The notes under the pieces: model-generated | What the model was told of the DNA's origin: nothing | The model's input: the letters and a program-made list of their open reading frames with translations, nothing else | Databases searched by the model: none | Assembly: GCA_902363825.1 (NCBI GenBank) | Contig: CABJBK010000003.1 | Location: 248,001 to 312,000, forward strand | Length of the DNA: 64,000 nt | Direction of reading: 5' to 3' | Source: Lachnospiraceae bacterium | GTDB taxonomy: Bacteria > Bacillota > Clostridia > Lachnospirales > Lachnospiraceae | Position numbers and translations under genes: made by a program | In this document: positions 4,234 through 32,934 of the stretch, piece by piece | How the letters are laid out: each line of letters opens with the position of its first letter | Numbering within the stretch: position 1 is the stretch's first letter

Positions 4234-4248
4234 GGAGGTGCCTGTCGA

Positions 4249-9983: not shown

Positions 9984-10003
9984 GTCAAGGAGGAGGACTA
10001 ACC

Positions 10004-10921
10004 ATGGCAGTGCCAAAATACGATGAATTAATGAAGCCTTTACTGGCAGCAGTAAAAGACGGTGAGGTCTATAAAATTAAGGACGTTACTGCCGTGTTAG
10101 CTCAACAGCTAAATTTATCAGCAGAAGACCTCGCAGAAATGCTTCCGAGCGGTAGGCAAACCGTGTTTAAAAACAGGGTCGGATGGGCGAAGACTTATCT
10201 GAAAAAAGCTGGACTCCTTGATAGTCCTGCCCGCGCCACTATCGTCATTACGGAAGCTGGAAAGAAAGTAGTTGCAGAAAATCCAGAGAAAATAGACTCC
10301 AAATATCTGGAACAGTTTCCCTCGTTTGTAGATTTTGCATCCGCCTCTGATCCTGTAAATGGAGATGATTCGGTGTCTACGATTTCAAAGCCGACGGATC
10401 TTACGCCCGATGACCAACTTGAAGACGCATATAAGCAGATTAATGCAAGCCTTGCATCTGATTTGTTGAGTGAGGTTCTGAAAATCTCGCCATACACCTT
10501 TGAAAAGCTCGTTGTTGATCTTCTTTCAAAGATGGGTTATGGAACTGTGGCTTACGGAAGTCATGCAACAGTCGCTTCCGGTGATGATGGAATTGATGGA
10601 GTCATCATGGAGGACAAGCTCGGATTCTCTTTGATTTATATGCAGGCTAAGGAATGGGCACCAGATAGAGTTGTTGGCCAGCCGGACATTCAGAGCTTTG
10701 TTGGTGCGATTGCCGGGAAGCACGGCGATGGACTTTTCGTTACGACAGCTAAGTTCTCACAGAAGGCTAAGGATTACGCAAATACTCATCACATTATTCT
10801 GATTGATGGTGAGAGACTTGCTAATCTGATGATTGAGTATAACTTCTGTGTGTCAACACGGAAAACGTTTGAAATTAAGGCAATCGATACGGATGCTTTG
10901 GCTGAATATCAGGATGAATAA
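10004..10921 (+). CDS. mrr: Mrr-like restriction endonuclease
   Basis: This protein of 305 residues has the two-part layout of Mrr, a type IV enzyme that cuts modified DNA. An N-terminal winged-helix domain (about 1-90, 'MAVPKYDELMKPLLAAVKDG') precedes a PD-(D/E)xK nuclease core with D198 in 'DDGIDG' and the catalytic pair Q214-A-K216, followed by 'GQPDIQSFVGAI'. I chose ATG 10004 because AGGAGGA lies at a proper distance; a GTG at 9980 overlapping the previous stop is less likely. It fits the anti-phage island. The kind of modified DNA it recognises cannot be read from sequence. Confidence 0.88.
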   Translation: MAVPKYDELMKPLLAAVKDGEVYKIKDVTAVLAQQLNLSAEDLAEMLPSGRQTVFKNRVGWAKTYLKKAGLLDSPARATIVITEAGKKVVAENPEKIDSKYLEQFPSFVDFASASDPVNGDDSVSTISKPTDLTPDDQLEDAYKQINASLASDLLSEVLKISPYTFEKLVVDLLSKMGYGTVAYGSHATVASGDDGIDGVIMEDKLGFSLIYMQAKEWAPDRVVGQPDIQSFVGAIAGKHGDGLFVTTAKFSQKAKDYANTHHIILIDGERLANLMIEYNFCVSTRKTFEIKAIDTDALAEYQDE

Positions 10922-10960
10922 TTTGCTTGCGAAAAAGCAGGAAGTTGGAGGGAATACATT

Positions 10961-13900
10961 ATGGCAAATGAGCTGCAGCCATTGTCGCTGCTCTTTCAAA
11001 ATAGATTATTCCGGATACCGGACTATCAGCGTGGCTATGCGTGGTTGCAGCAACAGTTGGTGGATTTTTGGGATGACCTTGTAAATCTTCAGGCTGACCG
11101 CTATCACTATACAGGTCTCCTGTCCCTTAAGCCTCTAAAAAGCAAGGAGACCGTCAGCTGGGGCGAGGACTTGTGGTTGGTCGAGAACGGATATAAGCCT
11201 TGTCATATCGTTGATGGCCAGCAGCGCATCACCACGTTTGTCATTCTCTTGAACGAGATCGTGGGATTTGTGCGTGGCTTAGATGAGAACAAGGGTAAGT
11301 CTGATAAGGAAATCACGCTGGGGTATGAAACGGTCGAAGAGATTGTCTCAAAATATATCTGTCGAAAAAGACCGCCAAACGGAGTAGTAACAACATACCT
11401 TTTTGGCTATGAGGTCGACAATCCCAGCGCAGAATACATGAAATATAAGGTGTTCGATGAGCCGTATTCCGGCGCAGTGAATGAGACATACTATACGAAG
11501 AATCTAAAGTTTGCAAAGAACTTTTTTGCAGAGAACATTAGGAAACTATATGATGAGTCCGGAGAAGGCGGCCTTGAGGCAGTAAATACGCTGTATAAAA
11601 AACTCACACAGCGCCTGATGTTTAATCTCCATGAAATCGACGATGATTACGATGTGTTTGTAGCTTTCGAGACCATGAACAATCGTGGTAAGAAGCTGAC
11701 GAATCTTGAATTGTTGAAAAACAGACTGATCTATTTGACCACGCTTTATGATGATGAGGTATTTGACGAGAAGGACAAGTCTGCCCTCCGTAAGAAGATA
11801 AATGACGCTTGGAAGGAAGTCTACTATCAGCTTGGTAGGAATAAGAGTGTTCCGCTTTCTGATGATGATTTTTTGCGTGCGCATTGGATTATCTACTTCA
11901 GGTATTCCCGTAAACGTGGCGATGACTACATTAAATTCCTGCTAAGCAAGTTCTCGTCAAAGGGCATATTTGAAAAGGCACCAGTTCTGGTTGAGACAGA
12001 GGCCGAGTCGGTTATCAGCGATGATGTTACTGATGCAGACGACACGGAAGTTACTGAAACAGAAGAACAGGAAATCATAGAGGTATCCAAACTCCAGCCA
12101 AAAGAAATCGAGGACTATGTCAATAGCCTCAAAGATATGGCGAAGTACTGGTATGACACCTATTTCCCATTTGAAAGTGCTAATCTTACTCCTGAAGAGC
12201 AAAAACGAGTCGATAGGCTTAACCGTATCGGCATCGGACATTTCAGGCCGCTGGTTACTGCGGTCATCAGTCGGCGGGATATTTCTGCGAACAGCAGAGT
12301 TAAAATCTTTGAAGCAGTTGAGCGCTTTATCTTTGTTGCATTTCGCTTGGGTAATTTTAATGCATCCTATGGCAGCAGTGATTATTATCGAGCTGCACGT
12401 CAGGTGTATGTGAAAGAAACGGATGTTGATGAGCTCTGTAAAGAAATATATGACAGGACAACGAACGATATCGATTTTGCCACGCAGAACTTTGTCACCA
12501 GAATTGAGAAATATTTTTCTACAGGGAATGGCTACTACGACTGGAACAGTCTGCGATACTTCTTTTATGAATATGAGGCTAAGCTGGCAGAGAAAAATAA
12601 TATAGATCGTTTCTGCACGTGGTCAATGTTTACAAAGTCCGAGAAGGATAAAGTGTCTATCGAGCATATTCTCCCTCAGACACCGACGAAGTATTACTGG
12701 CGTAATATGTACCGGCAGTTTAAGGATTCGGAAATCAAGATGCTTTCTGGAGCACTTGGGAACCTTCTGCCGTTGTCTCAGAGCGTAAACTCGGCTTTGC
12801 AGAATGACAGTTTTGAGGATAAGAAGCATTCCAAAACCACAGGACGTCGCGGATACGAGAATGGATCTCACTCAGAGATAGAGGTATCCAAGCTGCAGGA
12901 TTGGACTGCATTTGAGATATACAGCAGAACTGAAAAGCTTCTCGTTTTCATGCAGGAACGCTGGAACCTGCAATTCGACGAAGAACAGTTGGAAAAGCTG
13001 ATCGGCATTTCGTTCGTCAAAGATGGACGAGAAATCCCGGAGGAGTTGGAGGAAGTATCGGCAAACGTACCGGAATCCGAGGAAAGTGCAGAAGGCTCCG
13101 GAGATGATCAAAAACTGCAATTCTGGACAGCATTCGTAAACTATGCTAATGAGCACGGCAGATCAAGCAATATAGCAAAACAGAAAGCTGCTGGTCGAAC
13201 ATATTACGATGTGCACATAGGCGCGAACGGCTATCACTTATTCTTTTCCATTCCCTATGGTAAACGAATCAAGATGGGCATCTACACCTATAATGTGGAT
13301 ACCTATAACCGTCTGAAAGAATTGAAAGATCAGATTGAGACCGAATTTGGTGAGAACCTAAATTGGGAATACTCAAAATCGACAGGTACAACACGTTCCA
13401 TCGTTATTGAGGAGAAGGCTGATGTATTCAATCCAGCAGAGCAGCAGAAAATATTTGATTGGATCATCGACCATTTTGACCGGATCACGACAGCATTATC
13501 TATGGCCGGAGAACGTCTCAATATAAGCGGTGATTCCTCTGAAACGAGGTTTGAGATTAGAAAACGCTACTGGACGTATGCCTTAACCCAAATCCATGAG
13601 GCACATGGTAATCCCGGCTCTTTCAGCAATGTGAATCCGAGTACGGACAACTGGATAAACGGATTCTTTGGCATTGGAGGTTTCTACCTCTGCTGTGTTG
13701 CGAATTTTGACTCTGCCCGTTCAGAGGTCGTATTTGCCAGAGCGGAGAGATCAGAGAATAAAGCTGCGTTTGATGCTCTTTACCAGCATAAAAGCGAGAT
13801 TGAATCGAAGCTGGGAACGGAGCTTCAGTGGAACCGTGGAGATGATATCAAATCCTCGAAGGTATTTATTCAGCTTGATAACGTGAGCATTGAAAACGAG

Positions 13901-13993
13901 GATGACTGGCCGCAGATGGCAAAGTTCCATGCAGAATGGTCAAAGAAGTTCTACGATTTGATTGTGCCGTATATAACGGTAGATTGGCAATAG
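10961..13993 (+). CDS. GmrSD-like type IV restriction protein (DUF262-DUF1524) with extra C-terminal domain
   Basis: The 1010-residue product starts with a DUF262 (GmrS-like, ParB/Srx-fold) domain containing 'FRIPDYQRGYAW' (17-28) and DGQQR at 85-89. An acidic linker around 350-370 follows. Next comes a DUF1524 (GmrD-like) HNH-type nuclease region with H569 in 'IEHILPQTP' and the downstream 'LGNLLPLSQSVN'. The last 300 residues look like two copies of a DUF4268-type module ('FWTAFVNYANEHG' and a related stretch near 860-1000). GmrSD enzymes cut glucosylated hydroxymethylcytosine phage DNA. The ATG is preceded by GGAGGGAA. Family is confident; target modification is unknown. Confidence 0.88.
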   Translation: MANELQPLSLLFQNRLFRIPDYQRGYAWLQQQLVDFWDDLVNLQADRYHYTGLLSLKPLKSKETVSWGEDLWLVENGYKPCHIVDGQQRITTFVILLNEIVGFVRGLDENKGKSDKEITLGYETVEEIVSKYICRKRPPNGVVTTYLFGYEVDNPSAEYMKYKVFDEPYSGAVNETYYTKNLKFAKNFFAENIRKLYDESGEGGLEAVNTLYKKLTQRLMFNLHEIDDDYDVFVAFETMNNRGKKLTNLELLKNRLIYLTTLYDDEVFDEKDKSALRKKINDAWKEVYYQLGRNKSVPLSDDDFLRAHWIIYFRYSRKRGDDYIKFLLSKFSSKGIFEKAPVLVETEAESVISDDVTDADDTEVTETEEQEIIEVSKLQPKEIEDYVNSLKDMAKYWYDTYFPFESANLTPEEQKRVDRLNRIGIGHFRPLVTAVISRRDISANSRVKIFEAVERFIFVAFRLGNFNASYGSSDYYRAARQVYVKETDVDELCKEIYDRTTNDIDFATQNFVTRIEKYFSTGNGYYDWNSLRYFFYEYEAKLAEKNNIDRFCTWSMFTKSEKDKVSIEHILPQTPTKYYWRNMYRQFKDSEIKMLSGALGNLLPLSQSVNSALQNDSFEDKKHSKTTGRRGYENGSHSEIEVSKLQDWTAFEIYSRTEKLLVFMQERWNLQFDEEQLEKLIGISFVKDGREIPEELEEVSANVPESEESAEGSGDDQKLQFWTAFVNYANEHGRSSNIAKQKAAGRTYYDVHIGANGYHLFFSIPYGKRIKMGIYTYNVDTYNRLKELKDQIETEFGENLNWEYSKSTGTTRSIVIEEKADVFNPAEQQKIFDWIIDHFDRITTALSMAGERLNISGDSSETRFEIRKRYWTYALTQIHEAHGNPGSFSNVNPSTDNWINGFFGIGGFYLCCVANFDSARSEVVFARAERSENKAAFDALYQHKSEIESKLGTELQWNRGDDIKSSKVFIQLDNVSIENEDDWPQMAKFHAEWSKKFYDLIVPYITVDWQ

Positions 13994-14016
13994 TCCACTC
14001 AGGACGAGGAGCACTG

Positions 14017-14475
14017 ATGGCAAATTTAAATTCTGAGAATCCGCACGTCGGACGCAAGTTCCAAGAATTTGTGCAAACGATTCTCAAAGAAAAATATAAT
14101 ACATATTTTGAGCAAGAAGCAGCAATCCCCATCGGCAGACCGCCAAAGGAGCACAAGTTTGATCTTGCCAATGCTGACAGGTCTATCGTGGCTGAATGCA
14201 AATGTTATACGTGGACTGATTCCGGGAATGTTCCGAGCGCAAAGTTGATGGGCTTGGACGAGGCTGTATTTTACTTTGGCTTTCTGCCTTCTGGGACAAA
14301 GAAGCTGCTTTGTATGAAAAAAGCAGTGTTTCGTGGCAAGCAGGAAACACTGGCTGAGTATTATGTTCGAGCACATGGGCATTTGCTTGAAGATGTCTCT
14401 GTAATAGAAATTTCTGATGATGGAACAATCAAGATTGTCAGAGATGGATCATCGATCCCAGCAGAGGCATATTAG
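14017..14475 (+). CDS. Small PD-(D/E)xK-like putative nuclease
   Basis: This 152-residue protein is not one I can name. It contains D49 followed by E60-C-K62 in 'HKFDLANADRSIVAECKCYTW', spaced as in PD-(D/E)xK nucleases, so a DNA-cutting or nuclease-derived role is plausible. An upstream in-frame extension to 13936 exists, but it would overlap the previous gene by 58 bases. ATG 14017 has GAGGAG eight bases before it. It sits 23 bases after the GmrSD-like gene and is likely co-expressed with it. Confidence 0.65.
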   Translation: MANLNSENPHVGRKFQEFVQTILKEKYNTYFEQEAAIPIGRPPKEHKFDLANADRSIVAECKCYTWTDSGNVPSAKLMGLDEAVFYFGFLPSGTKKLLCMKKAVFRGKQETLAEYYVRAHGHLLEDVSVIEISDDGTIKIVRDGSSIPAEAY

Positions 14476-16481: not shown

Positions 16482-18092
16482 ATGAATAAAGATCAAGAAA
16501 GAAAAATTATGGATTATTGGGATCTTATGAGAGGAACGGTCAGGCAAGGTGATTATATTGCTGCAACAGTACTTGTAAATGAAGTTAAGAACAGAATGGC
16601 AATAACTGCTGTGCAAGAGACACCAGACACAGTTTATTCAGCACTCTTGGAGGTTGCTGACGAGCTACATATTATGAATCCATTTATTGATAAGGAAAGG
16701 TTCTTTTTTATCTACCAAGAAGGAAAACAACTTGAAAAGATGGATTGGGAAGGTGCGATTGCAAAGGTGGCTCGCTCTTCGAAAATGCCTATTCTACCAG
16801 TTCCAGTCATCAGAGTTTATGAGGAACGCTTCTCGGTTGACCCAGAATCGGTTCTTATAGCGGAAGCAGAGAAATTTGCTCCTAATCTTCTTCACATTGT
16901 TGATGAAAATATCAATTCGAGTTTTACCTTAACAACGCAAAATGCGACTTATGCAAAGGCTTTGGAATATGTATTTTCTGATTATGACAACGTCGAAATA
17001 ATGCTAACGGACATATATCAATATGGTTTTATTAATAAGAGATTTGACCTGATTTTCTCATGTCCCAATATGGGTGGCAGAACACTGGCAGAAGATAAAA
17101 ACTTCATGTGCAGAGAATTCGATATGGTAGCGCTTGAAAATCTATCTCTTCACCTCAATAGCGGAGGCCGTTTGGTAATAACTTTACCTGGAAGGATAAC
17201 ATTTGCATCTGGGAAAGTCAGTGACCTTAGACAATTCATTCAGACCAGTTACACAATTAAAGAAATTGCTGAATTACCAGAAGGGTCGCTTGAATACACA
17301 GGTATCAAGGTGTATCTGATTGATATTGAAAATACACGTCCGGACGATGATGATATCATCATTCGCAGGTACTCAGCCGGTGATCGAAAGACACGTAGGT
17401 CAGCGGTTACTTCTCTTGAGGTTACTGATGATACATTTGTAATGCTTAATGAGCTTGAGGAACAGGGAGATTGGAGCATTGATCGTATATTTGCTCAACA
17501 GGATGAAGAATATCTTAATTTCCAGAAGTCTGAGATTCGAAAAGAGTTAATCGGAAACGTTGCTCAAGTGTTTAGAGGCAAAGCTGTTAATAAGAAAGAT
17601 CCAGCTGGAAATATCAGTGTTGTTAATATTTCAAATATTGGCGATTACGACATAGATTATGAGTGTTTAGATCACCTACAGGAGGAAGAACGCAAGGTTG
17701 CCAATTATCTTTTACAAGAAGGTGACGTGCTTCTGCCAGCAAGAGGGACTGCCATCCGTACAGCGGTTTTCCATGAACAGACATATCCATGTATAGCATC
17801 TTCAAACGTCATTGTGATAAGACCAGATCAGAAAAATCTTAACGGGTATTACTTGAAAATTTTCTTAGATAGTCCGATAGGAAACAAGATGATAAGTGGC
17901 GCTCAGCAAGGAATGACCGTAATGAATATCAGCTACAAGGATTTGAATGTGCTTGAGGTACCACTTCCCAATATGGAGAAGCAGAAAGCTGTTGTTAAAG
18001 AATATCAGGAAGAACTGAAAAAATATAGCGACACGGTTGCAGCAGCGGAGAAGCGTTGGAACGAAGTTTTGAAAAAGCTGCAAACGTTTTAA
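16482..18092 (+). CDS. Pseudo-methyltransferase fused to a type I target-recognition domain
   Basis: The 536-residue protein has an N-terminal half (about 90-310) that follows the order of an HsdM-type N6-methyltransferase fold, but I cannot find the AdoMet motif (DPxCGSG). The catalytic NPPF position reads C-P-N-M at 194-197, so methylation activity looks lost. The C-terminal part (about 345-536) is an HsdS-type target-recognition half with 'GDVLLPARGTAIRTAV', 'NISYKDLNVLEVPLPNMEKQ' and a final coiled coil. It could be a specificity or scaffold subunit for the complete methyltransferases encoded next. The next gene begins 14 bases downstream. The domain reading is by eye; the function is inferred. 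Confidence 0.65.
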   Translation: MNKDQERKIMDYWDLMRGTVRQGDYIAATVLVNEVKNRMAITAVQETPDTVYSALLEVADELHIMNPFIDKERFFFIYQEGKQLEKMDWEGAIAKVARSSKMPILPVPVIRVYEERFSVDPESVLIAEAEKFAPNLLHIVDENINSSFTLTTQNATYAKALEYVFSDYDNVEIMLTDIYQYGFINKRFDLIFSCPNMGGRTLAEDKNFMCREFDMVALENLSLHLNSGGRLVITLPGRITFASGKVSDLRQFIQTSYTIKEIAELPEGSLEYTGIKVYLIDIENTRPDDDDIIIRRYSAGDRKTRRSAVTSLEVTDDTFVMLNELEEQGDWSIDRIFAQQDEEYLNFQKSEIRKELIGNVAQVFRGKAVNKKDPAGNISVVNISNIGDYDIDYECLDHLQEEERKVANYLLQEGDVLLPARGTAIRTAVFHEQTYPCIASSNVIVIRPDQKNLNGYYLKIFLDSPIGNKMISGAQQGMTVMNISYKDLNVLEVPLPNMEKQKAVVKEYQEELKKYSDTVAAAEKRWNEVLKKLQTF

Positions 18093-18106: not shown

Positions 18107-20524
18107 ATGATAGGAGCAATTATCGGAGACATCGTCGGGTCTCGCTTTGAATGGAATAATAATAAAAGCAAGGATTTTGAGTTCCTTACATATAAGTGCT
18201 TTCCTACCGATGATAGCATTATGACATTAGCATTGGCACAGGCTGTTCTGGTTAGTAAGCCGGATCATAGCGATCTATCAAGGAACGCAGTCGAATGCAT
18301 GCAGTCCGTCGGGCGCAACTATCCGGATTGCGGTTATGGCGGAGGATTCCGTAACTGGATGTTTTCTGACGATCCTAAACCATACAACAGTTATGGAAAT
18401 GGAGCTGCTATGCGTGTAAGCGCGGCGGGGTTCGCTGCTAATAGCATTGAGGATGCAAAAGACCTTTCCAGAAAGATTACTGAAGTAACTCATAATCATC
18501 CGGAAGGTATTAAAGGCGCAGAGGCCACAGCAGTTGCTATCTATATGGCCAAGACCGGCAGCAGCCTCTTGGAGATAAGAGATTACATTGATAAGAATTA
18601 TTATCCGATGAACTTTACACTGGATGGAATCAGAGCAAGCTACAAGTTTAATGAGACTTGCCAGGATACAGTTCCGCAGGCTTTGATGGCATTCTTCGAA
18701 TCGACGGATTTTGAGGACGCTATTAGGAATGCCATTTCAATTGGTGGTGACAGCGATACATTAGCAGCCATCTGCGGTGGTGTAGCCGAAGCATATTATG
18801 GTGTTCCTTCAGAAATAAGAAAGCATGCACTTACATTTTTGGATAAGCAACTTCTTAAGATCTTGGTTGCTTTTGAAAATAAGTATCCTCCGGTAATGGA
18901 AAAGAAGGTCGGTGATATTAGTGTGCCGATAGAACGTAAAGCCGAGAGAAAAGTGAATGGAATAGAACGAGAAATAATGATGGAAGAAGCTCTCCAGGCT
19001 GCTGATGATGACGTCGAAGATGCAGAGCTTACAAAAGAGGAAACTACAAGTCGGCAGCTTTTTAATCATCTCTTTGAGGCTTGTAATATTCTTCGCGGCC
19101 CTATTAACCAGGATGAATTTAAGAGTTATGTGACACCAGTCCTGTTCTTCAAGCGTATATCAGATGTTTATGACGAAGAATATGAAGAGGCATTAGAATT
19201 CTCTGGGGGCGATGTTGAGTATGCAGAAGCCGAGGATATGCATTCTTTTGTAATACCTGATGGCTGCCATTGGAATGATGTTCGTATGGTAAGCCAAGAT
19301 GTAGGAAAAGCAATTGTAAAAGCAATGACAGGTATTGAAAAGGCCAATCCGGATACCTTATCTGGAGTGTTCAGCAGCTTTGACGATGCAACATGGACAG
19401 ATAAGAATAAGCTGACAGATGAGCGCCTTAAGAACTTGATTGAGCACATGTCACTTATCAAGGTTGGAAACAAGAATTATTCAGCGGATATTATGGGTGA
19501 TAGCTATGAATTTCTGATAAAGAAGTTCGCAGATATGTCGAAAAAGAATGCTGGAGAGTTTTACACGCCAAGAACAATCGTAAAACTCATGGTAAATCTT
19601 CTCGATCCGAAGCCTGGTGAAACGGTGTATGATCCGGCTTGTGGTACAGGTGGAATGTTGATCGAAGCCATACATCATATGAATAATGACAGACTTGCTT
19701 ATGGTAGGATTTTCGGACAGGAAAATAATTTGTCCACATCTGCAATTGCTCGTATGAATTTATATTTGCACGGAGCAAAGGATGTTCAGGTTAAGCAGGG
19801 AGATACGTTAAGAAACCCGCTTTTCCTTGAAAAAGGAAAGTTGAAAACATTTGATTGCGTTCTCGCCAATCCGCCGTTCGGTATGAAGAAATGGGGCGCG
19901 GGGCAATTCGAATCGGATCAATACGGACGTAATATGTGGGGCTGCCCTTCTGACTCCAGCGCAGATTTTGCATGGCTTCAACACATGATTAAATCTATGG
20001 ACTCGAAGAATGGTCGGTGTGCAGTTGTTCTCCCACAAGGCGTATTGTTCCATTCGGGAAAAGAGGGAGAGATTAGAGAGCAGCTTGTTCGTTCAGATAA
20101 ATTGGAAGCAGTTATCACGCTGGCCAGTGGTGTGTTTTACAGTACCGGAGTTTCAGCATGCATTCTGTTTCTCAATAATAAGAAGGAACATAAGCACAAG
20201 GGCAGAATATGTCTGATTGATGGAACAGAGATATATACACCGCAGCGAGCACAGAATATTATCTCGCCGGATAACGTTAAAACTCTTTATAAGCTCTATA
20301 CCGATTATGTAGACGTTATTGAAAAATGCAAGATCGTGACAATCGATGACGTAGAAAAAGGTGGTTTTGAGCTGAGTGTAAAGAAATATATCGAGCAGAA
20401 AGCAAAGGAAGCAATACCACACGAAAAGGTATTGCTGGCGTATTATGAAGCACTTACAAAGGTACGTAAGTCTGAGGAGAAAATGAGAAAGCTGCTCATC
20501 GAAGGAGGGTATGTCAATGAGTAA
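18107..20524 (+). CDS. ADP-ribosylglycohydrolase fused to a type I HsdM methyltransferase
   Basis: One uninterrupted 805-residue frame joins two enzymes. Residues 1-265 form an ARH/DraG-type ADP-ribosylglycohydrolase with all magnesium-site motifs: G-D at 7-8, TDDS at 34-37, 'HNHPEGIKGA', and GGDSDT at 213-218. A charged linker (about 266-315) leads to a complete HsdM: helical N-terminal domain, 'GEFYTPRTIV', DPACGTG at 509-515 and NPPF at 588-591. AAGGAGG at 18,091 fixes the start at ATG 18107. Weak internal ATGs at 18,977 and 18,980 in the linker could make HsdM alone, but lack a good ribosome site. Reversal of ADP-ribosylation on DNA or protein is the expected N-terminal activity; the link to restriction is inference. 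Confidence 0.9.
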   Translation: MIGAIIGDIVGSRFEWNNNKSKDFEFLTYKCFPTDDSIMTLALAQAVLVSKPDHSDLSRNAVECMQSVGRNYPDCGYGGGFRNWMFSDDPKPYNSYGNGAAMRVSAAGFAANSIEDAKDLSRKITEVTHNHPEGIKGAEATAVAIYMAKTGSSLLEIRDYIDKNYYPMNFTLDGIRASYKFNETCQDTVPQALMAFFESTDFEDAIRNAISIGGDSDTLAAICGGVAEAYYGVPSEIRKHALTFLDKQLLKILVAFENKYPPVMEKKVGDISVPIERKAERKVNGIEREIMMEEALQAADDDVEDAELTKEETTSRQLFNHLFEACNILRGPINQDEFKSYVTPVLFFKRISDVYDEEYEEALEFSGGDVEYAEAEDMHSFVIPDGCHWNDVRMVSQDVGKAIVKAMTGIEKANPDTLSGVFSSFDDATWTDKNKLTDERLKNLIEHMSLIKVGNKNYSADIMGDSYEFLIKKFADMSKKNAGEFYTPRTIVKLMVNLLDPKPGETVYDPACGTGGMLIEAIHHMNNDRLAYGRIFGQENNLSTSAIARMNLYLHGAKDVQVKQGDTLRNPLFLEKGKLKTFDCVLANPPFGMKKWGAGQFESDQYGRNMWGCPSDSSADFAWLQHMIKSMDSKNGRCAVVLPQGVLFHSGKEGEIREQLVRSDKLEAVITLASGVFYSTGVSACILFLNNKKEHKHKGRICLIDGTEIYTPQRAQNIISPDNVKTLYKLYTDYVDVIEKCKIVTIDDVEKGGFELSVKKYIEQKAKEAIPHEKVLLAYYEALTKVRKSEEKMRKLLIEGGYVNE

Positions 20525-22010
20525 GAAGATAACACAAGAAGAGCTTGAATCCTATCTGTGGGATTCAGCTGTCCTCCTGAGAAATCATATCGATGCAGGA
20601 GCATATAAGCAGTATATCTTCCCTTTGTTATTCTTTAAGCGTCTGAACGATGTTTATGAAGAGGAGACAAGGAATGCGGTTAAGAATAACGGACCGGAAG
20701 CAGCTGATTGGGAGGAAACACATAATTATGTAATTCCTGATGGAGCGCATTGGGATGATGTCAGAAATGTTCCTGAAAATGTCGGGAAGGCTATTCAGTC
20801 AGCATTTCGAGCCATTGAGAGTGCAAATAGCGACAAACTGACTGGCATATTCGGAGATGGAACATGGACCAATAAGAGACGTCTACCGGACCGATTGCTA
20901 AAGGATTTGCTGGAACATTTTAGCTCGAAGACGCTTTCAATTGAGAATTGTCCGGAGGATGAGCTTGGACAAGGGTATGAATACTTGATTAAGCAATTTG
21001 CGGACGATAGCGGTCATACGGCTCAGGAATTTTATACCAATAGAACCGTGGTCCATCTCATGACAGAGATGTTGAAGCCGGAATCAGGTGAAGCAATCTA
21101 TGATCCGACATGTGGAAGTGCCGGTATGCTAATATCCGCAATATCTTACTTGAAAGATCAAAAAAAAGAGTGGAGAAATGTCTCTCTCTATGGTCAAGAA
21201 ATAAATGCACTGACGTCAGCTATCGCAAGAATGAATTTATTTCTTCATGGAATTGAGGATTTTCAGATTGTAAATGGTGATACACTTGCGGCACCGGCGT
21301 TCATTGAGCGCGGTAAATTAAAAACTTTCGATCTGGTGCTGGCAAATCCTCCGTACTCCATCAAAGAGTGGAGCCGTGATGCTTTCTCGGCAGATAAATA
21401 TGGTCGAAACTTTCTGGGAGTTCCTCCACAGGGACGTGCTGATTACGCGTTCTTGCAACACATTATAAAGAGCATGAATGAAAAAACTGGTCGTTGTGCA
21501 ATACTCTTCCCTCATGGTGTTTTATTTCGTAACGAGGAAAGTGATATGCGCGAGAAACTGGTGCGTGGAGATTATGTGGAATGTGTTATAGGTCTTGCGC
21601 CAAACTTGTTTTATAACTCACCTATGGAAGCATGCATCGTTATATGCCGCATGAATAAAACCACTGATCGTAGAGGAAAGGTTCTGTTTATCAATGCAGT
21701 AAATGATGTGGAGCGCAAAAATGCACAGAGTTATTTGACGGATGTTCATATTAAGAAAATCGCCGATGTTTACGCGAACTACAAGAATGATGATGGTTTT
21801 GCGCAGGTGGCGACCATAAAGGATATTGAGGAGAATAATTTCTCGCTAAGTATTCCGTTGTATGTGAAGCCTACTGTCGATGAGTCTGAGGTTGATACCT
21901 ACACGTTGCAGCAACACTATGAAAGCTGGAGAGCATCTTCGGAACGAGCGCTCAAATATTATACGCTATTGAATGAAATGATAAAGAAAGGCGGTGAGAA
22001 GGATGTCTAA
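20517..22010 (+). CDS. hsdM: Type I restriction-modification methyltransferase subunit (second copy in operon)
   Basis: This 497-residue HsdM of classical length has the N-terminal helical domain, 'QEFYTNRTVV', the AdoMet motif DPTCGSA at 196-202 and the catalytic NPPY at 277-280. It is clearly related to the HsdM half of the preceding fusion (shared stretches such as 'FFKRLNDVYEEE' versus 'FFKRISDVYDEE') but diverged well beyond a recent duplication. GGAGGG fits ATG 20517 better than the ATG six bases earlier. It overlaps the preceding gene by 8 bases and the following hsdS by 8, so all three are translationally coupled. Two different M subunits in one operon suggest a hetero-M complex, which is inference. 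Confidence 0.93.
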   Translation: MSKKITQEELESYLWDSAVLLRNHIDAGAYKQYIFPLLFFKRLNDVYEEETRNAVKNNGPEAADWEETHNYVIPDGAHWDDVRNVPENVGKAIQSAFRAIESANSDKLTGIFGDGTWTNKRRLPDRLLKDLLEHFSSKTLSIENCPEDELGQGYEYLIKQFADDSGHTAQEFYTNRTVVHLMTEMLKPESGEAIYDPTCGSAGMLISAISYLKDQKKEWRNVSLYGQEINALTSAIARMNLFLHGIEDFQIVNGDTLAAPAFIERGKLKTFDLVLANPPYSIKEWSRDAFSADKYGRNFLGVPPQGRADYAFLQHIIKSMNEKTGRCAILFPHGVLFRNEESDMREKLVRGDYVECVIGLAPNLFYNSPMEACIVICRMNKTTDRRGKVLFINAVNDVERKNAQSYLTDVHIKKIADVYANYKNDDGFAQVATIKDIEENNFSLSIPLYVKPTVDESEVDTYTLQQHYESWRASSERALKYYTLLNEMIKKGGEKDV

Positions 22011-23142
22011 GGTTCTTTTGGGTGAAGTTTCTCACGAACGTAAAGAAACTTGTAAGGGAAGTAAAGAAGGATATCCCATTGTAGGATTGGAACATTTGAT
22101 TCCTGAAGAAATCACTCTTACAACGTGGGATGAAGGTGCTGAGAATACCTTTACAAAAATGTTTCGTAAAGGCGATGTGTTGTTCGGTCGTCGGCGTGCT
22201 TATCTTAAGAAAGCTGCTGTCGCGCCATTCGATGGAATCTGTTCTGGTGACATTACAGTGATCGAAGCAGACCCAGATAAGATACTCCCTGAGCTCCTAC
22301 CGTTTATTATTCAGAATGATGATTTATTCGACTTTGCTGTTGGAAAGTCTGCTGGTTCGCTTTCACCACGTGTTAAGTGGGAGCATCTCAAAAATTACGA
22401 GTTTGAGTTACCTGATATGGATAAACAGAAGGCACTTGCAGAGCTTTTGTGGGCAATTGATGATACAAAGAAATCTTATCAGAAATTGATTGCAGCAACT
22501 GATGAATTGGTGAAATCTCAATTTATCGAGATGTTTGGAGAGCAGAAAGAAAACCCTAAAGGATTGCCAATGATGACATTGGGAGAGACATGTAAATTCT
22601 TTTCGGGAACAGGTTTTCCGAACAAATATCAAGGTAATGTTCATGGAACCTATCCTTTTTATAAGGTTGGGGACATTTCCAGAAATGTGCAAGAAGGTAA
22701 CGTTCGATTGAGGGCTGCAGATAATTATATTGAACCTGATATTGTGAAGGCTATCAAGGGTACGATCATTCCCCCCAATACTGTGGTTTTTGCGAAAATT
22801 GGTGAGGCTTTACGATTGAATAGAAGGGCGGTGACAACGCAAAATTGTCTTATTGATAATAATGCGATGGGAATACAACCGATAACTTCAGTAATTTGTT
22901 TGGAGTATTTTTTACAGTTTATGATTGGACTCGATATGAATGAGTATTCAACTGCAACGGCATTACCGTCTGTACGTAAGAGTTCGCTTGAAATGGTGAA
23001 AATAATTGTTCCTGATGTGGCAAATCAACAGCAATTTTCTGATCTCGCCATACAGAGCGATAAATCAAAATTTGAAATGGAACAGGCGCTTTCAGAACTG
23101 ACTGCTACATACAAACGTATCATAACAGAAAACCTTGGCTAA
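22003..23142 (+). CDS. hsdS: Type I restriction-modification specificity subunit
   Basis: This 379-residue S subunit has two target-recognition domains. The first (about 1-145) contains 'GDVLFGRRRAYLKKAAV' and 'PDMDKQKALAELLWAID'. The second (about 175-345) begins 'PMMTLGETCKFFSGTGFPN' and ends with 'PDVANQQQFSDLAIQSDKSK'. ATG 22003 is taken as the start; GTG 21994 is an alternative. A 20-base stretch near its 3' end (23,053-23,072) recurs at 23,989-24,008 in an hsdS fragment after the recombinase gene, which points to hsdS shuffling at this locus. Confidence 0.92.
   Translation: MSKVLLGEVSHERKETCKGSKEGYPIVGLEHLIPEEITLTTWDEGAENTFTKMFRKGDVLFGRRRAYLKKAAVAPFDGICSGDITVIEADPDKILPELLPFIIQNDDLFDFAVGKSAGSLSPRVKWEHLKNYEFELPDMDKQKALAELLWAIDDTKKSYQKLIAATDELVKSQFIEMFGEQKENPKGLPMMTLGETCKFFSGTGFPNKYQGNVHGTYPFYKVGDISRNVQEGNVRLRAADNYIEPDIVKAIKGTIIPPNTVVFAKIGEALRLNRRAVTTQNCLIDNNAMGIQPITSVICLEYFLQFMIGLDMNEYSTATALPSVRKSSLEMVKIIVPDVANQQQFSDLAIQSDKSKFEMEQALSELTATYKRIITENLG
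23053..23072 (+). repeat. 20-bp direct repeat, copy 1 (in hsdS)
   Basis: CAGAGCGATAAATCAAAATT is identical at 23,053-23,072 and 23,989-24,008, in the same orientation. The copies lie in the same protein context (QSDKSK near the HsdS C-terminus) and flank the recombinase gene. Confidence 0.85.
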
Positions 23143-23216
23143 GAAATAAGGTCATGAAGTTCCCTCCGGCTCGTGAGGATACCGGAAACGGAGGAAGAGA
23201 AAAGGAGGAAACCATC

Positions 23217-23927
23217 ATGATCAGTCAAGTAATAGCCACAATCCAGGATGAACTTAGTGAAGTCCTGGATGAAAACCAAATGAAGTGTCTTTCTGCGGTG
23301 CTGCAGAAGCACTTATCTCATTTTGAAGAAACGGAGAAGGAAGATACAGCAGAGAAAAATGACATGCTACCTGTCTTTATTGCTGCAAAGCGTGTCGAGG
23401 GATGTTCTGAAAAATCCCTTCGTTACTATGAATCTACAATTCGTAATATGCTGGAAAGCATAAATAAACCGGAATGTCAGATAACAACGGAGGATCTTCG
23501 CTCATATCTCGATACATATCAGCGTCGAGGAACAGTGAGTAAAGTAACCCTTGATAATGTGAGGCGCATCCTGTCCAGCTTCTTTGCTTGGCTCGAAGAT
23601 GAAGATTATATCGTCAAGAGCCCAGTGAGAAGAATTCATAAGGTCAAAACCGGTAAAACAGTAAAGGAAACCTATACAGATGAATCACTGGAGATGATGC
23701 GGGACCACTGTGACAACACGCGAGATTTGGCCATGATTGACCTTCTGGCATCCACTGGTATTCGTGTTGGAGAACTGGTTAAGTTAAACCGCAGTGATGT
23801 GGACTTTGAAAACAGAGAATGCATTGTTTTTGGAAAAGGTAATAAGGAACGGAAGGTTTACTTTGATGCTCGGACCAAAATTCATCTTCAAAGATACCTT
23901 GCAGAAGCTGGCCTTATACCGGATTGA
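23217..23927 (+). pseudogene. Truncated XerC/Cre-type tyrosine recombinase
   Basis: The 236-residue frame keeps the SAM-like core-binding domain (about 35-130) and the first half of the catalytic domain, including the first catalytic arginine in 'STGIRVGELVKLN' and the beta-hairpin lysine in 'FGKGNKERKVYF'. It stops soon after 'LQRYLAEAGLIPD', before the HxxR box and the tyrosine, so it cannot be active as encoded. ATG 23217 follows AGGAGG. Complete relatives sit beside multiple hsdS genes and invert specificity domains. Here the 3' end has been replaced by an hsdS tail in another frame. Confidence 0.8.
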
Positions 23928-24093
23928 GGAGATAGAAGTACTTGTCCCTAAAATAGATGAACAGCGCAGGTTTGCTGAATTTGTTCGGCAGAGCGATAAA
24001 TCAAAATTATTACTTCAAAACAAGTATGAGAAAATTAATCAAGACAGGAGGTTACTCACATGTTTAATGAAGACAACACAACTGAGCAGATGA
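23915..24093 (+). pseudogene. 3' fragment of an hsdS gene
   Basis: Starting in the last codons of the truncated recombinase, another frame reads 'RIEEIEVLVPKIDEQRRF' and then 'QSDKSKLLLQNKYEKINQ', the end of a specificity subunit. It resembles the C-terminus of the intact hsdS at 22,003-23,142 and shares its 20-bp DNA repeat. No target-recognition domain remains. It runs 34 bases into the following hsdR. It is most simply a leftover half of a former specificity cassette. Confidence 0.75.
23989..24008 (+). repeat. 20-bp direct repeat, copy 2 (in hsdS fragment)
   Basis: Identical to 23,053-23,072 and in the same orientation, 936 bases downstream. It marks the homologous C-terminal part of two hsdS copies. 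Confidence 0.85.
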
Positions 24094-26969
24094 TTATATC
24101 TACGCTCAAGAAAAACGGCTGGGAGTACATCTCAGCAGACGACCTTGACAGAGAAGAAAACGATGTCATGGTGGAGTCTATGGTGCGCGAAGCACTTATA
24201 AGACTCAATCCCGAAATTGCAGAGGATGAGTCACGCGCAGATGAGATCATATATAAGCTGCGAACACTCTTTCTCTCAACAAATCCACAGAATCTTGTTA
24301 CCCAAAACGAAGCCTTCAAGCAGATGGTGTTTGAGAAAAACTCATATCCATTTGGCGAAGACGGCAAGCAAGTGTCAATCGACTTCTTTGGTACGGAGAT
24401 TAATGGCAAGCTGGATCAGAATCAGTATGTTGTTACGAATCAGTGGGTATATCCGAAGAAGGAGGGTGGAAAACGTCTGGATATCGTACTTCTCGTAAAT
24501 GGATTCCCGTTTGTAATTGGTGAGCTGAAGACTCCGGTCCGTGCAGCTATTACCTGGCTGGACGGAGCACAGGACATCAACAAGTATGAGCAGAGCATCC
24601 CGCAGATGTTTGTAACGAATGTGTTCAACTTTGCTACAGAAGGTAAATGTTATCGATACGGTTCTGTTTGTATGCCAGCTGCGAAATATGGTCCTTGGCA
24701 TACAGCGGATGATAAGTCTGACGGATCTTTGGCGGCAGTACAAACCAGTGTGCAGGACATGATCACGAAGTATAAGATTATGGACCTGTTCCAGTTCTTC
24801 ACACTTTTCGCTACCGACAGCAAATATCGGAAGTTCAAGGTCATTGCGCGTTATCAGCAGTATGAAGGCGCCAACATGATCATCGAACGTGTGCGTGCGG
24901 GATATCCGAAGAAGGGCCTTATCTGGCATTTCCAGGGTTCCGGTAAATCCTACCTGATGGAGTTTGCCGCAGTAAAGCTTCGTATGCTTCCAGATCTTAA
25001 GAATCCTACGGTTATTATCGTAGACGATCGTCTGGATTTGGAGTCGCAGATTACAGCACAGTTCCACTCCTCTGATGTGGGCAACCTGGAATCAGCATCT
25101 ACTCGTGAGCAGCTTATGACGATGCTGAGACAGGATATCCGTAAGATTATTATCACGACCATCTTCCGCTTTCAGGAAGTTACCAGTGAGCTTAGTCTGC
25201 GCAACAATATCATCGTAATGGTCGATGAGTGTCATAGAACGCAGGAAGGTGATCTCGGTATTAAGATGAGAACGGCCCTTCCGAATGCTTTCTTCTTTGG
25301 TATGACAGGTACACCTATCAATCGCGTGGACAAGAATACGTTCGCAACATTCGGTGCTACGGAAGATCGCAGCGGATACATGAGCAAGTATTCTTTTTCT
25401 GACTCCATTCGTGACCACGCGACGCTGCCGCTTAATTTTGAGCCTGTACCGGTAGATCTCCGCGTTGACAGAGATACGATGGACCGCGAGTTTGATATCC
25501 TGACACGCGACCTTCCGGATTCCGATAAAGCTGAACTTTCCAAGCGCGTTAACATGCAGGCTATCATGTACAATGAGAAACGTATTCACAAAGTTTGCGC
25601 GCATATTGCAAAGCACTTCACTGAAAAGATCCGTCCGAATGGATATAAGGCGCAGGTGGTTGTTTATGATCGCCCTTGCTGTCTGAAATATAAAGCAGAG
25701 CTCGATAAGCTTCTCGGAGAAGAGTGCTCAACAATCGTTATGGATACCAATGATGATAAGGCGGATGAATATAAGAAGTATCGCCGTTCAAAGGATGAGG
25801 AAGCAAAAATTCTCGACCGTTTCAGAGACCCTAACGATCTGCTTGAGATCGTAATTGTAACAGCTAAGTTGCTGACCGGATTTGATGCTCCTATTCTTCA
25901 GGTTATGTATTTGGACAAGCCAATGAAGGATCACACTTTGCTGCAGGCAATCTGCCGTACAAACCGTACCTTCGATGAGGGGAAGACGCACGGCTTGATC
26001 GTAGATTATATTGGAATATTCGATAACGTTGCCAAGGCTCTGGACTTCGACGAAGGCAGCATGAAAAAAGTCATTACAAATATCGAGGAAGTTAAGAAGC
26101 AGATTCCGGCACTTCTTAGAAAGTGCCTCAGCTACTTCATGGGTGTTGATCGCACCGTAGATGGATGGGAAGGATTGATGGCCGCACAGGAGTGTTTGCC
26201 TACAAATGCTGAGAAGGATAAGTTTGCAGCAGATTACCAGGTGCTGAATCGCGCATGGAATGCGGTCTCTCCTGATCCGATGCTTTCACCTATCCAGGTC
26301 GATTATGTATGGTTGACCAAGGTGTTTGAATCCGTAAAGCCTACGAACGGTGGCGGCGGACTCATCTGGGCGGCTCTCGGACCTAAAACAATGGAAATCG
26401 TGAACTCCAACATGGATGTCGGTGAAGTTCATGAGGATGAAGAGATTCTGTCACTTGATGCTGAGCTGATTGACGCATTTATTGAGAAACATAAGGGTGC
26501 TAAGAATGCTGCGAAGAAGGTCGAGATTGATCTGGTCGCTCGTATACATAAGCATTCGGATGATCCGAAATTTATGCGCTTGGGTGACAAGCTGGAGAAA
26601 CTCCGTGAACAGCACGAGCAGGGTCTTATCAACAGCATTGAATTCCTGAAGATGCTGCTTGAGCTCGCAAGAGAAGCAGCGCAGGCTGAGAAGGAAGTTG
26701 TGCCGGAGGAAGAAGTCGATAAGGGCAAGGCGGCTCTTACGGAACTCTTCAACGGTGTGAAGAATACCAATACTCCTGTAATTGTGGAGCGTATCGTTAC
26801 AGATATTGATGACATTGTAAAGATTGTCCGTTTTGATGGATGGCAGAATACAACCGGCGGTCGTCAGGAAGTTAAGAAGGCACTTCGTAGTGTCGTATGG
26901 GTCAAATACAAGATTAAGGACAAGGAAGTTTTCGATAAAGCATATAGCTATATTGAACAGTACTATTAA
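24060..26969 (+). CDS. hsdR: Type I restriction endonuclease subunit (second system)
   Basis: This 969-residue HsdR has the nuclease site D141 with E155-L-K157, the motor Walker A GSGKS (293-297), DECH at 389-392, 'GMTGTPI', 'LLTGFDAPILQVMYLDKP' and 'QAICRTNR'. It belongs to a different HsdR branch from the copy at 4,249-7,428, with only motif-level similarity, so the two systems were acquired separately. AGGAGG ten bases upstream fixes the ATG. It should be the nuclease and motor partner of the HsdM and HsdS proteins at 18,107-23,142. Confidence 0.95.
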   Translation: MFNEDNTTEQMIISTLKKNGWEYISADDLDREENDVMVESMVREALIRLNPEIAEDESRADEIIYKLRTLFLSTNPQNLVTQNEAFKQMVFEKNSYPFGEDGKQVSIDFFGTEINGKLDQNQYVVTNQWVYPKKEGGKRLDIVLLVNGFPFVIGELKTPVRAAITWLDGAQDINKYEQSIPQMFVTNVFNFATEGKCYRYGSVCMPAAKYGPWHTADDKSDGSLAAVQTSVQDMITKYKIMDLFQFFTLFATDSKYRKFKVIARYQQYEGANMIIERVRAGYPKKGLIWHFQGSGKSYLMEFAAVKLRMLPDLKNPTVIIVDDRLDLESQITAQFHSSDVGNLESASTREQLMTMLRQDIRKIIITTIFRFQEVTSELSLRNNIIVMVDECHRTQEGDLGIKMRTALPNAFFFGMTGTPINRVDKNTFATFGATEDRSGYMSKYSFSDSIRDHATLPLNFEPVPVDLRVDRDTMDREFDILTRDLPDSDKAELSKRVNMQAIMYNEKRIHKVCAHIAKHFTEKIRPNGYKAQVVVYDRPCCLKYKAELDKLLGEECSTIVMDTNDDKADEYKKYRRSKDEEAKILDRFRDPNDLLEIVIVTAKLLTGFDAPILQVMYLDKPMKDHTLLQAICRTNRTFDEGKTHGLIVDYIGIFDNVAKALDFDEGSMKKVITNIEEVKKQIPALLRKCLSYFMGVDRTVDGWEGLMAAQECLPTNAEKDKFAADYQVLNRAWNAVSPDPMLSPIQVDYVWLTKVFESVKPTNGGGGLIWAALGPKTMEIVNSNMDVGEVHEDEEILSLDAELIDAFIEKHKGAKNAAKKVEIDLVARIHKHSDDPKFMRLGDKLEKLREQHEQGLINSIEFLKMLLELAREAAQAEKEVVPEEEVDKGKAALTELFNGVKNTNTPVIVERIVTDIDDIVKIVRFDGWQNTTGGRQEVKKALRSVVWVKYKIKDKEVFDKAYSYIEQYY

Positions 26970-30536: not shown

Positions 30537-31152
30537 GATTAGAGCGATTCAAACGGAATATAGAGGTTACCTTTTCCGATCCAGGTTGGAAGTAAGGTGG
30601 GCGGTATTCTTCGATGCCTGCGGTGTGGATTGGGAATATGAACCAGAAGGTTATGACCTGGGCAACGGACTTTACTATTTGCCAGACTTTTTGCTTCACG
30701 GTGTAACTATTAACCACGGATATTTCAAGAAGAATTGCGATATCTATGTTGAAGTAAAGGGTCAGATGAACGATGCTGACGCTGAGAAGATCAACCGATT
30801 TTATGCAGCAGGTTATCCAGAAGGTAATGACTGGGGCGTTTCACATACAGCAGTTCTGGTGGTTGGGAATATTCCTGACGGTGAAGATATGTGCGAGATT
30901 TTAGATAACCTGCAGACGGAAGCCTACCATGATCATCATGGATGGCCAAACTTATACAACTTCGAGACCGTTGACGGGAACTATTTTGGTGCCTATCCGG
31001 GAGTGGACAAGCACGGCAAGTTTAATCTGTTCGGCGATGACTCCACCTACCTTTGGAGCATGAACTCGGATGTGACGGAACGAGCCTATCGTTTGGCAAG
31101 GCAGGCAAGATTTGAATACGGTGAAACTCCAAAGGTAAGGGGGTATAGATAA
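30529..31152 (+). CDS. Phage/ICE-associated PD-(D/E)xK-like protein
   Basis: The 207-residue protein contains the arrangement 'RSRLEVRWAVFFD', then D53 in 'YYLPDFLL', then E75-V-K77. This is the spacing of a PD-(D/E)xK nuclease core and resembles small proteins commonly carried next to VapE primases in clostridial mobile elements. It overlaps the DUF4406 gene by 8 bases and shares one base with the next start (TAATG). Nuclease activity is inferred. Confidence 0.65.
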   Translation: MNEIRAIQTEYRGYLFRSRLEVRWAVFFDACGVDWEYEPEGYDLGNGLYYLPDFLLHGVTINHGYFKKNCDIYVEVKGQMNDADAEKINRFYAAGYPEGNDWGVSHTAVLVVGNIPDGEDMCEILDNLQTEAYHDHHGWPNLYNFETVDGNYFGAYPGVDKHGKFNLFGDDSTYLWSMNSDVTERAYRLARQARFEYGETPKVRGYR

Positions 31153-32886
31153 TGCGTGATTTAGCAATTGCCTACGGAAATAATCGGCAAGCGAAGAAAT
31201 GGGTTAATAAAACGATCAGTTATACAGATTTGAAAGAGCGCCTTAAGGTGACAATCCGCACCGCGGAGTCGGCTGAGGAGTACGCCAAGATGGGTAAAGC
31301 ACAAAGGGACGCTGCAAAAGACCACGGTGGTTTTGTTGGAGGCGTTCTGGCCGGCGGCCGCAGAAAAGTTGATACGGTTGAGTTCCGATCCATGATAGCT
31401 TTGGACGGGGACCGTATCGATACAGACTTCCTTGACAACTATGAAATTAATGCTCCGTATACATCCTTTCTTTATACGACGCACAGTCATACGCCAGAAA
31501 ATCCGAGAGTGAGACTTATCTTTCCGCTTACAAGGGATATCTCGACGGAGGAGTTTGTGGCGGTATCTCGCTACTTAGCACAGATGCTCGGGATCGATTT
31601 TTTTGACGAGTGCTCTTATCAACCAAATCAGCTTATGTATTGGCCGTCTTCTCCGCAGAATGGTGTCTTTGTATTTAAGGAAGTCGAGAAGGATTGGCTT
31701 AATCCAGATGATATTCTTTCGGCACATCCAGAGTGGACAGATCCGACCAGACTTCCAACGTCATCCCGTGAGAGTAAGGCAAACCAGATCACACAGCAAA
31801 AGGTGCAGGACCCTTTAACAAAAGAGGGTACTGTTGGTCTTTTCAATAGAGTGTTTTTTCCAGTCACACGTGCCCTTGATACATTTCTTCCTGACATATA
31901 TGAACCGACTGAAAACGAGAACCGCTACCACCTTATTGCAGCCAGCAGTATGGCTGGCGTGGAGATTAAGGAGGATAAGTTTGTTTACTCGCATCACGCA
32001 AAGGACCCGGCATACCTGAAACTTTGTAATGCCTTTGATATTGTCCGTATTCATAAGTTTGGTGACCTTGATGAGAAGGCTTCGTTTAAGGAAATGTGCG
32101 AGTTTGCCATGCAACAGGACGAGGTGAAGTTGCAGGCAGCAAATGAACGTCTCGCGGAAGCAGAGATAGACTTTGCGACTATGGACGACGATTGGAAGAA
32201 GCGTTTGAAGTATCAGCCAAGGACAAGTCTTCTTGAGAATAGCGTGTACAACTTGAATCTTATTCTGGCCAATGACCCAGACTTTGCAAATTTTGCTTAT
32301 AACGAGATGGCAAACCGCATCCAGATCACTGGTCCGCTTCCTTGGGAGCGCCCGGAGGGAAATCAGTTCTGGCGTGATGCAGATACGGCACAACTTAAGT
32401 CGATTATTGATATCCGCTATCTTCCTTTTTCCAGTAGGAACCATGACGTCGCTTTTACGAAAATTGCTGACGACCGGCACTTCCATCCCATCCGCGATTA
32501 CCTCAATAGTCTGCCGCAGTGGGATGGCATTGAGCGTGTGGAGGATCTCTTTATTAAGTATCTGCAGGCGGATAACACAGAATATGTGCGCACTGTTACC
32601 AGAAAAACGTTTGCTGCAGCGGTAGCGAGAATCTATGCGCCAGGCACAAAGTTTGACTGCGTACCGGTATTGGATGGTGATCAGGGTATTGGTAAAAGCA
32701 CAATCGTCAAGGAACTGGTTACACCTGACTACTATTCGGAAACGCTGTCCCTTACAGATATGGATGATAAGTCTGGCGCAGAGAAATTGCAGGGATTTTG
32801 GATTGTTGAGATCGGAGAGCTTGCGGGCATGAAGAAGGCCGACATTGAAAAGGTGAAAGCGTTTCTGTCTACATCCGATGATAAGT
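31152..32886 (+). pseudogene. VapE-type primase-helicase, 3' truncated
   Basis: This is the N-terminal and central part of a 'virulence-associated E' replication protein: a primase-like domain (about 1-200) followed by a VapE P-loop ATPase with Walker A GDQGIGKS at 509-516 and 'FWIVEIGELAGMKKADIEKVKAFLS'. Normal VapE sequence stops after 'STSDDK' near 32,886, roughly where the second half of the ATPase should continue. The frame itself stays open to 34,043, but through unrelated DNA. Loss of the rest should abolish replication activity. Confidence 0.8.
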
Positions 32887-32934
32887 TGGTCCTATGTCAA
32901 GATTTAGTACAAGTTAAAATGAGAATTTTCTCCC
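32887..32934 (+). other. Junction segment between accessory DNA and chromosome
   Basis: These 48 bases match neither VapE before them nor the response-regulator tail after them. They contain an AT-rich stretch from 32,896 (TGTCAAGATTTAGTACAAGT and onwards) that might be the end of an insertion sequence, but no transposase is present and I cannot confirm it. Confidence 0.4.

Follow-up and report, generated by a model that had tools for sequence, protein, structure and literature searches.

An ADP-ribosylhydrolase domain fused to HsdM

The window, a stretch of 64,000 nucleotides from a Lachnospiraceae bacterium (GCA_902363825.1, contig CABJBK010000003.1, positions 248,001 to 312,000 of the forward strand), contains on its plus strand a single open reading frame (ORF) of 805 residues (18107..20524) that joins an ARH3-like ADP-ribosylhydrolase (ARH) domain, through a linker, to a complete HsdM, the methyltransferase (MTase) subunit of type I restriction-modification (RM) systems (Table 1). 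The N-terminal part is assigned to the ARH/DraG family by the ARH fold of its predicted structure and by its match to Pfam ADP_ribosyl_GH, and the closest solved chains to the HsdM part are 7vru_A/B, the M1 and M2 subunits of PacII. The structure is a monomer model with a pTM of 0.60, in which the ARH pocket is not placeable relative to DNA or to an interface between two HsdM subunits. The domain shares its fold, metal-binding residues and flap residues with the ARH3, DraG and ARH1 hydrolases, but it has about 250 residues and lies within a DNA-modifying enzyme, whereas ARH3 chains have 347-366 residues. Aligned to ARH3, E15 of the window protein corresponds to E41, T34-D35-D36 to T76-D77-D78, and D215, D217 and T218 to D314, D316 and T317, in the numbering of human ARH3; mutants of ARH3 at E41, D77 and D314 are named in PDB titles.

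All seven of these catalytic and metal-binding residues, comprising the ligands of the dinuclear metal centre and the flap glutamate, are present in the window protein. Of 135 fused proteins (the window protein, P0001-P0120 and 14 loci, most of them more than 80% identical to the window protein), 129 have the full set, as do 72 of 75 stand-alone ARHs. The six incomplete sets belong to P0058, with three of the seven residues altered, to P0111, P0113, P0115 and P0117, with one alteration each (D217N in the last three), and to L009, in which T34 is replaced by S. Among fused M1 sequences the methylase motifs NPPF and AGEF occur in 150/152 and 149/152, respectively, and the two without NPPF (L001, L006) are truncated. 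P0058, P0113, P0115 and P0117, in which the ARH residues are altered and NPPF is intact, are possible natural controls. Comparison of the window with L130 gives a dN/dS of 0.011 for the MTase part and a dN of 0.025 for the ARH domain, where synonymous sites are saturated. These sequences indicate strong purifying selection on the fused protein, in which both the ARH and the HsdM sites look active. The original prediction of a full ARH and a full HsdM in one frame is borne out, and the counts above answer the question that it raised, whether relatives keep both catalytic sites: nearly all of those examined do.

Recurrence of the fusion

The fusion recurs in many bacteria. Among 5822 homologues at E 1e-30 or better, the best 120 (80-100% identical to the window protein) all have ADP_ribosyl_GH, HsdM_N and N6_Mtase domains, these 120 being clusters at 90% identity of which many are close to each other. 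With residues 250-315 as the query, 63 proteins were matched and 63 had all three domains; the reach of this search was proteins of 443-1409 residues, a range that excludes a stand-alone ARH with such a linker. In a set of 21 fused sequences that includes the window but neither the partial L137 nor the re-fetched copies L081-L090, the ARH has a mean pairwise identity of 0.73, HsdM_N of 0.78 and the MTase of 0.70, compared with 0.36 for the linker, which appears to evolve fast. An artefact or a lost stop codon between the domains is rejected by the 120 fused homologues, by the homologous junction and by linker matches that are all fused; the original prediction had named an artefact near residues 265-315 as what would overturn it, and had proposed the search for co-occurrence of the two domains that yielded this outcome.

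Scanned with the ARH domain as the query, 84,980 species genomes gave at least 589 confirmed loci, the best 80 of which were retained for inspection. At 13 of these 80 the ARH is fused to HsdM in one ORF, which at four of them (L001, L004, L006, L012) is broken or cut off inside the HsdM part; each of the remaining 67 carries either an ARH gene of about 230-340 residues or an ARH extended in some other way. The 13 fused loci include Streptococcus anginosus, Paenibacillus, Brevibacillus and Colidextribacter, several metagenome-assembled genomes (MAGs) labelled Clostridia or Oscillospiraceae and one labelled Deferribacteraceae. Two further genome searches found full fusions in 2 of 394 and 1 of 39 genomes. 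A two-gene ancestor was sought and rejected, there being no stand-alone ARH gene directly adjoining an intact M1 in the loci examined; the sole case of an ARH beside M1 (L127, genome G332) is the scar of a deletion, where the end of the ARH runs out of frame into the final codons of M1. The deletion has removed the methylase domain of M1 and kept M2, and a DUF262-like gene (assigned by eye) lies upstream. In S. anginosus J4206 (L001, L128), an insertion of about 48 kb interrupts the HsdM part of the ARH-M1 gene near SAM-binding motif I; Tn1806-like serine-integrase integrative and conjugative elements are reported to target hsdM genes (PMC12942858).

On mobile elements, 3489 plasmid records match the query and none has a place covering 80% of the 805 residues. 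With the ARH domain alone as the query, a relative is found in 10 of 50,697 phage records; a Porphyromonas phage (L149, 5001-5783) and a Bacteroides phage (L150, 5001-5774) each have a stand-alone ARH followed by a small ORF of about 325 bases. In IMG/VR 16 loci match the ARH and seven (L130-L135 and the partial L137) have the fusion, but because each of the seven adjoins homologues of M2, S and R they may be host DNA and are not counted as phage genes.

The operon and its surroundings

The fusion gene encodes the M1 subunit of a non-canonical type I RM system of the PacII-like M1-M2-S-R kind. Like PacII (PDB 7vru, 7vs4; PMC9613975), the operon encodes two different M subunits, an HsdS and an HsdR, with NPPF (and AGEF) in M1 and NPPY in M2. 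In PacII the motifs are AGEF/NPPF for M1 (m6A) and AAEF/NPPY for M2 (m4C), the AAEF consensus coming from a small set of systems (PMC9613975). The AAEF consensus is not found here: M2 of the window has AQEF, and among 22 M2 sequences all have NPPYS, 20 have AQEF and two have SQEF. Because the PacII paper groups M1 and M2 by NPPF and NPPY, these variants are probably a difference within the PacII-like kind. M1 of PacII (499 residues in the PDB chain) matches the HsdM part alone, whereas M1 of the window has 805 residues with the ARH at its N-terminus, and a degenerate MTase-HsdS protein, pMS, is encoded upstream of it.

Table 1. Features of the fusion gene and of the surrounding operon in the window
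Feature	Position	Strand	Evidence and remarks
pMS: degenerate methyltransferase-like protein fused to one HsdS recognition domain	16482..18092	+	upstream of fusion
ARH3-like ADP-ribosylhydrolase domain	18107..18856	+	fusion residues ~1-250; Pfam ADP_ribosyl_GH
Inter-domain linker, 62 residues	18857..19042	+	residues 251-312; hairpin and one helix in the model
HsdM domain (M1, predicted N6-adenine methyltransferase subunit)	19043..20524	+	residues 313-805; HsdM_N, N6_Mtase; AGEF, NPPF
Second HsdM (M2, predicted m4C subunit)	20511..22010	+	AQEF, NPPY motifs
HsdS specificity subunit, two recognition domains	21994..23142	+	Pfam Methylase_S, two stretches; PADLOC Specificity_I
Tyrosine recombinase, shortened relative to most relatives	23154..23927	+	Pfam Phage_integrase; kind found between hsdS copies
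HsdR restriction/translocase subunit	24060..26969	+	TIGR00348, E 1.8e-143
HELVH-motif protein, read as metalloprotease-like, possible helix-turn-helix	27235..29172	+	Pfam: sub-threshold HTH_26 match alone

The HsdM-like domain of pMS is conserved but catalytically degenerate, and its HsdS recognition domain is conserved between genera; because this would not be expected of an ordinary HsdS, one fixed DNA target or a regulatory role is suggested. The recombinase has 257 residues in the window, 326-347 in eight relatives (L007, L010, L011, L019, L130, L132, L134, L135) and 172 in L012. Copies of hsdS flank tyrosine recombinases in the relatives L010, L011 and L157, an arrangement that suggests shuffling of specificity. 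Homologues of the HELVH-motif protein follow HsdR in L009, L131, L133 and L137. Elsewhere in the window, a defence island (329-14475) contains a second type I system (HsdM at 329, HsdS at 2995, HsdR at 4249), a YgjP-like metallopeptidase/HTH protein (7428), Mrr (9980) and a GmrSD-DUF4268 protein (10961). One ORF at 31152-34043 combines a phage VapE-like domain (451-579) with a histidine-kinase region (HisKA 842-902), and looks like either an in-frame junction of the end of an element with a sensor kinase or an assembly join.

History of the ARH domain

The ARH-bearing M1s and a few without ARH form one clade (37 rows, 31 fused and six ARH-less; support 100/100). The best 120 matches to the HsdM part alone comprise 112 with ARH and eight without. 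Two of the latter may be broken or miscalled genes (P0149 starts inside HsdM, P0151 inside the linker), and the rest (P0148, P0152-P0155, P0166) have other N-termini; P0152-P0155 are M1s of 541 residues in which a different extension, about 46 residues long, precedes the conserved ETTS junction. Among 392 genomes of one order, an M1 orthologue occurs in six, with ARH-length frames in four; in the other two (L162, L163) M1 adjoins M2 and the fetched stretch contains no ARH homologue. The persistence beside M2 of same-clade M1 orthologues without ARH speaks against a further suggestion of the original prediction, that assembly of the system is controlled by ADP-ribose marks, for assembly does not seem to need the ARH domain.

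Clean co-inheritance of ARH and M1 was not seen. The window protein has 95% identity to P0020 in ARH and 81% in the MTase, and 84% and 95%, respectively, to P0010; the correlation of ARH with M1 distances is low (Spearman 0.23, reached by 99 of 2000 permutations); and the trees conflict. ARH trees unite the window group with L002, L164 and L166 (support 87/91), a clade rejected by the HsdM data (p-AU 0.0013, for groups picked after the trees were seen), and another ARH tree places L001 and L002 with the window clade (98/97). Fused rows are scattered in the ARH tree, requiring seven changes of which at least five are forced, and they form a single group in 0% of 200 trees of a bootstrap that had not settled; the stand-alone ARHs L003 and L092 sit within fused clades. 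The simplest history consistent with these sequences would begin with a single fusion, after which the ARH was exchanged, lost or set free in places. Independent fusions are the less likely cause of the scatter, given that the linker can be aligned across the whole set and that a single clade takes in the ARH-bearing M1s, though L019 and L091 may have an independent fusion origin. Some lineages have lost the ARH and retained M1, exchange of the module is probable, and the ARH appears to be a dispensable, exchangeable module kept for a conditional use of its own, not an obligatory part of the assembly.

Predicted function

Phages make use of ADP-ribosylation, and so do bacteria in conflict with one another; DarG, to which we return below, is a macrodomain hydrolase. 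The reading that we favour, with a probability of roughly 0.45, is that the ARH erases ADP-ribose which foreign agents, phages foremost, have placed on the restriction complex or close to it. M1 would carry an active ARH3-like hydrolase at its N-terminus as a built-in eraser; an outside ADP-ribosyltransferase (ART), most likely that of a phage, would place ADP-ribose on the restriction complex or on nearby proteins; and the ARH would strip it, so that methylation and restriction continue. We infer each of these steps (hydrolase activity, substrate, phage as the source of the mark, benefit to restriction). No ART or sirtuin match was found among the 34 window ORFs scanned, shorter ORFs being outside the scan. 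In this lack of a coupled ART the locus resembles the ARG-centred systems, built on an ARH (ARG) domain and proposed as host counters to phage ADP-ribosylation (PMC9503650). The partners of ARG there are phosphatases (in slightly more than 55% of the systems), chaperones and Nudix/WYL regulators (in over 42%); fusion to a type I MTase goes unmentioned in the text consulted (PMC9503650).

Some ARH relatives have partners partly like those of ARG-centred systems (macro, NADAR, VWA, SseB, WYL, phosphatase and nuclease). Of the 67 unfused loci, nine have a macrodomain family no more than 6 kb away (macro confirmed by Pfam for L049) and five a VWA-like family, assigned by eye. Other ARH relatives are fused to NADAR (L038), DHH (L117), SseB (L078), GNAT (L057) or DUF6508 (L136, which adjoins a GmrSD homologue), and L079 (8001-9541, a Pseudanabaena MAG) has two tandem ARH genes overlapping by a few bases. 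A scan of the neighbours of stand-alone ARHs, covering eight ORFs from seven loci, found some that fit a setting of this kind: a PDDEXK_4 nuclease and a DnaB-like protein at L003, where a WYL protein also occurs, an MvaI-type nuclease (L013), a calcineurin-like phosphoesterase (L016) and an HD protein (L022). A WYL protein also precedes the fusion in L012, one of five relatives with upstream ORFs scanned.

Several observations weigh against an eraser of outside marks. The neighbours at L018, L021 and L025 look unrelated; the phosphatase and the Nudix/WYL regulator of ARG-centred systems are not seen in the RM operon of the window; and at least four fused proteins (P0058, P0113, P0115, P0117) look ARH-impaired and keep NPPF, which implies that ARH activity is not always needed. 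In the test of exchange, the groups were chosen post hoc, and in the reverse direction the HsdM grouping is compatible with the ARH data (p 0.126). A literature search aimed at phage ARTs that act on restriction brought up a single review, and activity, substrate and phage phenotype are predictions.

The NTD-catalytic parts of M1 and M2 of PacII close on each other once DNA is bound (PMC9613975), so that an N-terminal ARH of M1 might be close to the M1-M2 interface. Action in cis, within an ARH-M1-M2-S(-R) complex, that undoes phage ADP-ribosylation of the complex or of bound DNA is a more specific proposal and a rather doubtful one. In published panels, ARH-family enzymes are inactive on ADP-ribosylated guanine in RNA, and on ADP-ribosylated uracil the bacterial enzymes are inactive and human ARH3 is weakly active (PMC11833690, PMC13036486); nucleobase ADP-ribose is therefore less likely as a substrate than phosphate-end or protein ADP-ribose. 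These activities bear on a DNA-bound complex that strips ADP-ribose from DNA ends or bases, for instance where a toxin has damaged the DNA or a phage has capped its ends, and so opens sites to methylation or cleavage. The DNA-binding partner domain favours such an eraser of nucleic acids, as do the removal of phosphate-linked ADP-ribose from RNA ends by ARH- and macrodomain-family hydrolases and the fusion in L038 to NADAR, a family that acts on ADP-ribosyl-guanine (PMC11833690), but the inactivity or weakness of ARH-family enzymes on modified guanine and uracil counts against it and we think it unlikely.

It is similarly unlikely that the ARH serves endogenous control, in which M1, M2 or R is ADP-ribosylated by a transferase of the host, restriction is damped under stress, and the complex is later reset by the fused ARH. 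DraT and DraG control nitrogenase in a like manner, but no transferase was found at the locus, M1 orthologues without ARH persist beside M2, and fused loci spanning several Bacillota genera and a Deferribacteraceae-labelled MAG would need a widely shared transferase. The dense defence island around the fusion (second type I system, Mrr, GmrSD) and the few fused members with altered metal ligands would suit an ARH that binds ADP-ribose or a related NAD-derived signal, released as another defence system consumes NAD, and gates restriction, with catalysis secondary; the full catalytic set in 129/135 fused proteins is beyond what binding alone should require, and this role seems improbable. We give about as little credence to an ARH that serves the cell generally, for example as immunity to competitors' ART toxins, and is fused to M1 for expression and spread, since one junction with a homologous linker is shared by 21 sequences and the linker is found, within the size range searched, in fused proteins alone. 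ART-ARH pairs are known (PMC9503650; PDB titles 6dre, 8za7), but that the ARH is the antitoxin of a linked ART toxin is very improbable: no adjacent toxin was found among the 34 window ORFs or the gene families at fused loci; leaving aside the recombinase and genes of hsd type, none of these families is shared by more than two of the 13 fused genome loci.

Significance

No ARH-HsdM fusion, nor any other direct physical link of an ADP-ribose eraser to a restriction enzyme, was found reported in the 5.39 million open-access PMC full texts searched (a range excluding subscription journals and preprints), in agreement with the view of the original prediction that such a combination is new. Among published systems, the closest link found between ADP-ribose chemistry and type I RM is DarTG2 in an hsd operon, the RRDM island (PMC12255303); there the chemistry is likewise tied to the operon, but by a separate DarTG2 toxin-antitoxin pair, whereas in the window the hydrolase has the ARH fold and shares one chain with HsdM, and no transferase was found among the ORFs scanned. 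If the eraser of outside marks protects restriction, phage anti-restriction by ADP-ribosylation is implied. We know of no description of such anti-restriction. Closely related M1s exist in ARH-bearing, ARH-less and apparently ARH-dead natural versions, which makes a simple genetic test possible. If the favoured reading is true, the fusion would offer a compact test system for the proposal of ARG-centred immunity (PMC9503650), and if the ARH is an eraser in cis, the pattern in which the module is exchanged and lost would reflect which phages carry such transferases.
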